A stretch of 64,000 bases of DNA from the NCBI RefSeq assembly GCF_001282785.1, contig NZ_CVUA01000001.1, positions 1,054,001-1,118,000 on the forward strand, read 5' to 3'. The notes under the pieces were generated by a model. It was given only the letters and a program-made list of their open reading frames with translations, did not search any database and had not been told where the DNA came from. Origin of the DNA: Halolamina sediminis. Lineage in GTDB: Archaea; Halobacteriota; Halobacteria; Halobacteriales; Haloferacaceae. Numbering within the stretch: position 1 is the stretch's first letter; every line of letters begins with the position of its first letter. Positions 9,314-14,182 of the stretch are shown here, piece by piece. The position numbers and the translations under genes are program-made.

Positions 9314-10273
9314 ATGACGACACCGTTCAGCGGGGTCTACCCCGCCATGACCACTCCCTTCCGGGAGGACCGACGCATCGACCACGACCGACTCGCCGCC
9401 GACGCGCGGCGCCTCGAAGCCGCGGGCGTCGACGGGCTCGTCCCCGTCGGCTCCACCGGCGAGTCCGCGACGCTGACCCACGACGAGCACGCGCGGGTCG
9501 TCGAGACCGTCGTCGACGCCGTCGACGATGTCCCGGTGATCGCCGGCGCGGGCTCGAACGCGACCCACGAGGCCGTTTCCCTCGCCGAAGACGCCGAAGA
9601 AGCCGGGGCCGACGCCGTCCTGCTTATCTCGCCGTACTACAACAAGCCCGAGGCCGCGGGCTACCTCGACCACTACCGCACCATCGCCGACAGCGTCGAC
9701 CTGCCGGGGATCGTCTACAACGTCCCCTCCCGGACGGGGCGGAACGTCCCCGTCGACGTGGTGGCCGAACTCGCCGAACACCCGAACGTCCAGGGGTACA
9801 AGGCCGCCAGCGGCGACCTCGGCCGCGTCTCCGAGGTGATCGAACGGACGCGCGACGAGACGTTCTCGGTGCTCTCCGGCGACGACGGGCTCACGCTTCC
9901 GATCTGCTCGCTGGGCGGAACGGGAGCGATCAGCGTCGTCGCCAACGTCGAGCCCGAGCGCACGGGCGCGATGGTCGGCGCCGTCGCCGAGAACCAAAGG
10001 TTCTCGGCTGCCAACCAGAAATCGAAGATTTCTGGTGACGCCGCTGCCAGCGACATGGCCCGCGCCCGCGAGCTCCACTACGAGCTCGAACCCCTGATTC
10101 GCGACCTGTTCGTCGAGACCAACCCCATTCCGGTGACGGAGGCGATGGCGATCCGCGAGGACCACCCGCCGTACGTGCGCTCGCCGCTGACTCGGCTCTC
10201 CGAGGAACACCGTGAGGCGCTCCGCGAGACGCTCGCCGACCTCGCGGGCGGCGAGCCAGAGGTGACCACCTGA
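9314..10273 (+). CDS. dapA: 4-Hydroxy-tetrahydrodipicolinate synthase with in-frame palindromic insert
   Basis: First committed lysine-pathway enzyme; condenses pyruvate with aspartate semialdehyde. The 319-residue TIM barrel has the PVGSTGES pyruvate-binding loop, Tyr in IVYNVPSRTGRN, and the Schiff-base Lys163 in GYKAASGDL. Residues about 224-244 are an Asn/Lys/Ser-rich segment unlike the rest of the protein. The DNA there consists of two perfect 10-bp hairpins (9986-10008 and 10014-10036), yet the frame stays open. This segment falls before the helix MARARELHYEL and is probably a surface loop. dapB begins at the base after its stop codon. Confidence 0.93.
   Translation: MTTPFSGVYPAMTTPFREDRRIDHDRLAADARRLEAAGVDGLVPVGSTGESATLTHDEHARVVETVVDAVDDVPVIAGAGSNATHEAVSLAEDAEEAGADAVLLISPYYNKPEAAGYLDHYRTIADSVDLPGIVYNVPSRTGRNVPVDVVAELAEHPNVQGYKAASGDLGRVSEVIERTRDETFSVLSGDDGLTLPICSLGGTGAISVVANVEPERTGAMVGAVAENQRFSAANQKSKISGDAAASDMARARELHYELEPLIRDLFVETNPIPVTEAMAIREDHPPYVRSPLTRLSEEHREALRETLADLAGGEPEVTT
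9984..10036. repeat. Two adjacent perfect hairpins inside dapA
   Basis: GCCGAGAACC (9986-9995), loop AAA, GGTTCTCGGC (9999-10008); then ACCAGAAATC (10014-10023), loop GAA, GATTTCTGGT (10027-10036). On the minus strand the first unit occupies a 30-nt block (9984-10013) that begins TGGCAGCCG and ends CGGCGA, the same ends and length as the dapF unit. The A/T content is much higher than the surrounding gene, consistent with acquired sequence. Confidence 0.85.
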
Positions 10274-13193: not shown

Positions 13194-14182
13194 CGGTCGC
13201 GTTCGAGAAGTACGACGGCGCGGGCAACGACTTCGTGGTCGTCGACGTAGACGAGTGGAACTCGTCTGGCAGCCGGAACGCGCAGCGTTCCGGCGAGGCG
13301 GACGGGCACCCCGTCGAGGACCGCGCCGCATTCGTCCGCGTCCACTGCGACCGCGAGGTCGGCGTCGAGAACGAAGCCAGCGCCCGCCACGGCGCCGACG
13401 GCGTGCTGTTCCTCTCGTTGGACGCGGCCGCCGCCCCGGCGAGGGTGACGATGACGCTGGTCCAGCCCGACGGCTCCATCGCGGAGATGTGCGGCAACGG
13501 CGCACGCTGCGTGGCGGCGTGGGCCGCCGACCGCACGGATGCGTCGACGTTCGACATCGACACGCCCGCCGGCACTCGCCGCGCGGTCGTCGATGACGAG
13601 GTGGCCGTGGAGATGGGCGTGCCGACGTTCGACCCCGAAGACGTCCCACTCGCAGCCGACGAACCGCTCGTCGACGCGGCGCTCGACGAACTCGACGGCA
13701 CGCCCGCCGCGGGGCTAGCCGTCACAGCCGTGAACACCGGCGTCCCCCACGCAGTCGTCTTCGTCGGCGACGTGGACGCGGTCGAGATCGACGCCGTCGC
13801 GTCACCGATCCGTCACGCCGACGCGTTCCCGGACGGCGCGAACGTCACGTTCGCGTCGGCGGCGGACGAGGGGTTCCGACAGCGCACCTACGAGCGCGGC
13901 GTCGAGGGGGAGACGCGAGCCTGCGGCACCGGCGCGGTCGCGGTCGCCGCGGCGGCGAAGCGGCTCGGCCGGATTCAGGGGGGCGCCGGCTGGATCACGG
14001 TTTCCCCGCCGGGCGGCGATCTCGCCGTTGCGGTGCCCGAGGACGGCCCCGCACGGCTGCGTGGCCCCGCGAGAAAGCGCTTCGAGGGGGAGCTCCCTAT
14101 CCCCGAGGGCGACCGCGTCGCGGGCGTAAGCGGCGAGGCGGCGCTTGGCGCGGACCGTATCGACGACGGGCACGAGCGATGA
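13190..14182 (+). CDS. dapF: Diaminopimelate epimerase with in-frame palindromic insert
   Basis: Interconverts LL- and meso-diaminopimelate without a cofactor through two cysteines. Both are visible: Cys in EMCGNGARC and Cys in TRACGTGAVAV. The 330-residue protein is longer than usual 270-290-residue DapF. Residues about 20-38 (after VVVDVD) are a Ser/Gly/Arg-rich insert encoded by two hairpins (13249-13267 and 13272-13294). It lies in a loop after the second N-terminal strand, so activity is probably kept. The start overlaps the lysA stop and its own stop overlaps dapE. Confidence 0.93.
   Translation: MTVAFEKYDGAGNDFVVVDVDEWNSSGSRNAQRSGEADGHPVEDRAAFVRVHCDREVGVENEASARHGADGVLFLSLDAAAAPARVTMTLVQPDGSIAEMCGNGARCVAAWAADRTDASTFDIDTPAGTRRAVVDDEVAVEMGVPTFDPEDVPLAADEPLVDAALDELDGTPAAGLAVTAVNTGVPHAVVFVGDVDAVEIDAVASPIRHADAFPDGANVTFASAADEGFRQRTYERGVEGETRACGTGAVAVAAAAKRLGRIQGGAGWITVSPPGGDLAVAVPEDGPARLRGPARKRFEGELPIPEGDRVAGVSGEAALGADRIDDGHER
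13249..13296. repeat. Two adjacent hairpins inside dapF, ends matching the dapA unit
   Basis: AGACGAG (13249-13255) pairs with CTCGTCT (13261-13267). GCCGGAACG (13272-13280) pairs with CGTTCCGGC (13286-13294). The second lies in a 30-nt block (13267-13296) starting TGGCAGCCG and ending CGGCGA, identical at both ends to the block in dapA. The stems and loops differ between the two. Confidence 0.85.

Follow-up and report, generated by a model that had tools for sequence, protein, structure and literature searches.

A double-hairpin insert in the dapA gene of Halolamina sediminis and a probable family of mobile palindromic mini-elements in haloarchaea

An in-frame palindromic insert in dapA

The window analyzed here, a 64,000-nucleotide stretch of the Halolamina sediminis genome (contig NZ_CVUA01000001.1, positions 1,054,001 to 1,118,000), carries a dapA gene that harbors two adjacent hairpins flanked by short tags (Table 1). 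A preliminary description had reported two perfect 10-bp hairpins with the loops AAA and GAA in this gene, and both lie exactly where it placed them; the reading frame likewise stays open across the insert, as it had noted. The bounds that it gave (9984–10040, about residues 224–244) are shifted by 2 bp in the alignment, which yields 9982–10038 and residues 224–242. Compared with the congeners, the insertion measures exactly 57 bp (19 codons), lies in frame between GGCGC and CG, and adds the residues VAENQRFSAANQKSKISGD to DapA. Both stems are 100% complementary over 10 bp each, and an outer 3-bp pair, CGT/ACG, also encloses the unit. Energy minimization of the 59-nt unit (9982–10040) yields a fold made up of both stems and this outer pair, with z-scores of −7.4 (RNA) and −7.6 (DNA); none of 200 shuffled sequences was equally stable.

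Table 1. Features of the dapA insert and of the related dapF copy (window coordinates; G000 denotes the H. sediminis genome)
Feature	Positions	Strand	Remarks
Host gene dapA	9314..10273	+	open frame, 319 aa; residues 224-242 are the 19-aa insert
Inserted element, 57 bp, CGTC...GA	9982..10038	+	H. salifodinae has the element; 5 congeners and every other haloarchaeal DapA in the alignment show an exact gap here
Left tag CGTC (family: CGTY)	9982..9985	+	from copy comparison
Hairpin 1, stem 10 bp, loop AAA	9986..10008	+	arms 9986-9995/9999-10008
Spacer TGCCA joining the two hairpins	10009..10013	+	
Hairpin 2, stem 10 bp, loop GAA	10014..10036	+	arms 10014-10023/10027-10036
Right tag GACG (inverted CGTC)	10037..10040	+	CG of the tag is most simply the target site
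dapF copy, shorter, in frame just after the GAGNDFVVVD motif (VDEWNSSGSRNAQRSGE)	13246..13298 (G000:1067246-1067298)	+	

Among the other haloarchaeal dapA genes aligned, 29 of 30 lack the insert, which is present in one of six congeners (H. salifodinae, G003) and in none of the 24 genes from other genera. Orthologues without the segment, for which the preliminary description had proposed a search, are thus the rule, five of the six congeners included, and most of the aligned haloarchaeal DapA proteins do not share it as they would share an ordinary loop. The AlphaFold model of DapA is confident in its fold (mean pLDDT 87, about 58–74 in the insert) and has the insert lengthen the turn between the predicted helices 214–234 and 242–265; the effect on DapA is likely neutral.

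A dispersed repeat family with conserved structure

A search of the 2.84-Mb genome with 101 bp around the dapA insert returned 18 other matches, with E-values down to 1e-15. The consensus of 20 copies reads CGTC-GACGAGAATCnnnGATTCTCGTC-TGCCA-ACCAGAACGCnnnGCGTTCTGGT-GACG, and the family plan is CGTY-hairpin-(T)GCCA-hairpin-GACG, the left tag being CGTC or CGTT and the right tag GACG in nearly all copies. The net length of the unit is mostly 55 or 57 bp, with a minimum of 45 bp. Pairing within the stems is maintained by covariation: 97.8% of the cells are paired and 44 are doubly changed, a level reached by none of 500 shuffles, and pairing is destroyed when the partner column is slid by 1–3 columns.

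A covariance model (R1) recovers about 50 distinct members of the family in H. sediminis. The search of this and related genomes for the hairpins, which the preliminary description had recommended, thus returned recurrent copies with compensatory changes. At E ≤ 1e-3, R1 matches occur in 160 of 170 Haloferacaceae genomes and 27 of 28 genera; these E-values are rough, and weak matches may represent other hairpin pairs, while strong ones share the core GCCAACCAGAA...TTCTGGTGACG. At E ≤ 1e-8, matches occur in 45 of 53 halobacterial genomes, as against zero of about 240 genomes from elsewhere in the phylum. Most copies are intergenic or lie within other mobile DNA. Many intergenic copies of H. sediminis (e.g., at 705415, 188382, and 2387905) are located within mosaic repeats of several hundred bp that are common to several loci.

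Empty sites and insertion target

Exact empty sites in congeners were found for dapA, VOC, and both S9 peptidase genes (57 bp each) and for uvrC (45 bp); since indel variation is general at the dapF, MFS, and kinase sites, these constitute weaker evidence for insertion. Two IS200/IS605 families with further empty sites prove insertion independently. In the first, the left end (GGGGATACAG^CGCCG) is occupied by the unit in 3 of 14 copies, and the tnpB 3′ end in 2 further ones; in the second, 6 of 14 copies carry a 51-bp in-frame unit at the C-terminus of tnpB (CTGCCAG^CGACGACTGA). Read in the orientation of the unit, the inserted block is followed by CG in all eight sites, in genes and IS elements alike. 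Insertion thus takes place immediately 5′ of a CG dinucleotide. The units have entered these sites as insertions, with exact empty counterparts, genome-wide dispersal, covarying stems, and, within genes, a uniform frame and strand. Because element and target both begin with CG, a target-site duplication cannot be told apart from the element. With regard to the hallmarks of a MITE, terminal inverted repeats that match a transposon and a duplicated target, the unit has 3-bp CGT/ACG ends, and the flanking CGs may represent either a 2-bp duplication or element sequence. A 4-bp duplication (CGTC/CGTT) would fit VOC, uvrC, dapA of H. salifodinae, and one IS site; it fails at the S9 genes and the other IS sites, and only CG is common to all.

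Copies within genes

Nine copies reside within genes of this genome—dapA, dapF, uvrC, two S9 peptidases, MFS, VOC, a histidine kinase, and tnpB—where genes were called from open frames, composition, and homology rather than annotation, and named from sequence motifs. Every one of the nine has the sense orientation and is read in one shared frame (C|GTY ... GAG), and the net length is divisible by 3 in each of them, versus 24 of the 44 other copies. Since 60% of the CGs in the window genes have their C at codon position 3, the probability that all nine share strand and codon phase is 2e-5, assuming random orientation and the CG phase frequencies of the window. Five of the six consensus frames are stop-free, and stop codons alone therefore do not force this uniformity. 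The encoded peptide, V-(D/A/H)E-...-S-G-D, is hydrophilic.

The dapF unit is absent in most congeners, one of which (G001) has another long insert at this position instead. Units are thus found in two lysine-pathway genes of one cluster, dapA and dapF. The same frame is used in other species, in an FtsJ-type rRNA methyltransferase, an SDR, the C-terminus of a VapB-like antitoxin, and others, in a tally that leaves out a Natronococcus copy (L143) whose strand is not assignable. The FtsJ-type methyltransferase carries one unit in H. pelagica and two in tandem in H. salifodinae.

Taken together, the dapA insert very probably belongs to a family of palindromic mini-elements, mobile but non-autonomous, that extends across the haloarchaea. 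The unit would comprise two tagged hairpins, back to back, which enter DNA immediately 5′ of CG. Within a gene, it would survive if it arrives in its one harmless frame, in which it encodes a hydrophilic linker, and if its length is divisible by three; in DapA, this linker would extend the turn between two C-terminal helices. Units in other frames would be removed by selection rather than avoided through an insertion bias. Mobility itself is read from presence and absence at orthologous sites.

Insertion history

The dapA insert is common to H. sediminis and H. salifodinae, while an identical 45-bp uvrC unit occurs in H. sediminis (G000:2395059-2395105, L109) and H. pelagica (G002, L195), with flanks that are 88.5% identical. 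A five-locus Halolamina tree, with all nodes at 100, groups the genomes as (G000,G005), (G001,G003), and (G002,G004). Inheritance of the dapA insert from the common ancestor of two sister species is ruled out by this tree, which pairs H. sediminis with G005 and H. salifodinae with G001. The presence of the dapA and uvrC inserts in non-sister species implies that the same base was hit twice, that precise loss is frequent, or that short tracts were exchanged.

The loops evolve very differently from the arms. Between the six similar tnpB hosts (L223, L225, L226, L227, L231, and L239), pairwise differences amount to 68% in the loop triplets and 3% in the arms, and the IS flanks differ by 10–16%, the upstream figure being ungapped and hence too high. 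Likewise, the dapA arms of H. sediminis and H. salifodinae are identical, while the loops read AAA/CAG and GAA/TTC, the latter being an inversion. Given this divergence of loops and arms and the dapA and uvrC inserts of non-sister species, a more specific reading can be entertained tentatively: a haloarchaea-specific, protein-coding mobile hairpin pair without a recognized transposase, which may repeatedly enter the same base in different species and undergo rewriting at the hairpin tips that leaves the arms intact. The near-random triplets of the loops, set against the invariant arms, may preserve a readable record of hairpin processing.

A possible mobilizing enzyme and alternative interpretations

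No dedicated transposase for the unit was found. The mini-elements would move via a hairpin intermediate of single-stranded DNA on which some enzyme acts in trans. Of 30 Y1-transposase loci sampled, 12 contain units, which mostly occupy the left end or the tnpB 3′ end, and short palindromes suit an HUH enzyme. Moreover, the PATEs of Haloquadratum walsbyi, which share the near-terminal palindromes of IS605, shrink to 52 bp (PMC3119063). It is conceivable, if rather unlikely, that the unit is such an IS200/IS605-derived PATE, consisting of fused IS605-type ends and moved in trans by a Y1 TnpA. However, in the Y1 loci that were aligned, the units prove to be polymorphic cargo. Among the members of the two aligned IS families, most or about half have an exact empty site in place of the unit, and the ends of both families are unlike its CGTY/GACG ends. 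For these two families, polymorphic cargo and unrelated ends rule out IS605 as the source of the unit. No Y1 gene was found that has units as its own ends, and many unit-rich genomes are devoid of a detectable Y1 gene; Y1 transposase genes (PF01797) went undetected in G001, G011, G012, G018, and G100 despite 10–23 unit matches each, and the H. sediminis genome itself contains Y1 fragments only.

Guide RNAs are encoded at the tnpB 3′ end in TnpB systems, and several IS elements carry the unit at this position. Together with the compensatory changes and the very stable RNA fold, this might indicate a conserved RNA structure, e.g., a protein-binding site or part of a guide RNA, that is selected as RNA wherever it is located. 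Such a function is improbable in view of the exact presence and absence of the unit at orthologous sites, its occurrence in both orientations within IS elements, and the existence of tnpB copies without it. Rfam contained nothing above a gathering score for six copies with their flanks, and hairpins in DNA are expected to covary just as much. Domestication of the encoded peptide for the benefit of DapA, for instance in salt adaptation, would account for the uniform frame, the hydrophilic peptide, and the presence of the insert in two species, but it appears more improbable still, as similar peptides occur at unrelated places of unrelated proteins and sister species lack the unit in dapA and uvrC. 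Finally, an ordinary lineage-specific DapA loop that is palindromic by chance, for which only the location in a tolerant turn speaks, is ruled out for practical purposes by about 50 genomic copies, exact empty sites in genes for unrelated proteins, and the fold z-score of −7.4.

Relation to described repeats and implications

Protein-coding palindromes have so far been mainly an oddity of Rickettsia and Wolbachia. The reading of the dapA insert as a protein-coding palindromic mini-element, proposed in the preliminary description, is supported by the present data. Its analogy with the Rickettsia palindromic elements (RPE) holds functionally, but in structure the units stand nearest to CGTC-tagged REPs arranged as head-to-head dimers (PMC3733652). 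These REPs, which a survey places in five bacterial phyla only, form a superfamily that includes the rickettsial RPE-4 and RPE-6 (PMC3733652). They resemble the haloarchaeal units in the outer CGTC tag, the perfect short stems, the head-to-head dimer, the partly intragenic and in-frame location, and the lack of an apparent dedicated transposase (for the bacterial REPs, PMC3733652). Variants of the REP tag read TGTC or CCTC. As to the unpaired CCA tail of the REPs, the spacer TGCCA gives CCA for hairpin 1 but TGGCA for hairpin 2. In contrast to CGTC REPs, whose stems of 8–9 bp start with AT and whose loops span 4–5 nt, the haloarchaeal units have stems of mostly 10 bp that do not start with AT, hypervariable loops of mostly 3 nt, and a left tag that is often CGTT, and their hosts are haloarchaea. 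Because stem start, loop length, and host differ, the units are not assigned to the CGTC REPs.

RPE and the Wolbachia elements (WPE) are likewise repeated palindromes that lie in frame in unrelated genes and add a conserved peptide (RPE: PMC10969869); RPE are, however, long stem-loops of about 105–150 bp, whereas the haloarchaeal units comprise 45–57 bp and two hairpins in GC-rich archaea. REPIN/RAYT systems share the dispersed inverted hairpin doublets, but these GTAG REPs feature a GTAG tag and a RAYT gene flanked by the repeat, in place of the CGTY tag of the units. Among haloarchaeal repeats, the nearest described ones are the Haloquadratum PATEs and SMRs (PMC3119063). They include SMR-A of H. 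walsbyi, which measures about 110 bp, has prominent inverted ends, and, like the units, inserts into IS605-type elements. Both PATEs and SMR-A are small, mobile, and transposase-free; in-frame protein insertions, which the units do form, are not described for them in the passages considered.

The preliminary description knew of no haloarchaeal equivalent, and no haloarchaeal report of such coding palindromes was found, although a search of open-licence PMC papers only is weak evidence. For archaea in general, a precedent exists in Methanocaldococcus jannaschii, whose palindromic elements with coding potential (Suyama et al. 2005, as cited in PMC2229807) are, judging from that secondary description, likewise archaeal, palindromic, and fused into protein genes. 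Archaeal coding palindromes as such are thus not new; the present family is apparently new to haloarchaea and seemingly undescribed. With a range across the Halobacteria and empty sites in culturable, partly genetically tractable hosts, it renders the origin, the movement, and the protein effect of such elements testable. It also constitutes a warning for annotation, since SANQ..SGD-type inserts in haloarchaeal enzymes would represent mobile DNA rather than functional loops.

Further observations

Some copies occupy unusual positions within or next to genes. A tenth unit of H. sediminis (G000:442194-442252, L068) ends a Hef-like nuclease gene, contributing its last residues and its stop codon, a TGA located in a loop of the unit. 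The histidine kinase unit (G000:1299044-1299090, L110) is situated between two copies of AVEHG (NAVEHG-STGNQTQSGD-AVEHG). In four haloarchaea (L119, L130, L135, and L140), the unit is located at the C-terminus of a VapB/AbrB-like antitoxin, directly before a PIN-like toxin gene.
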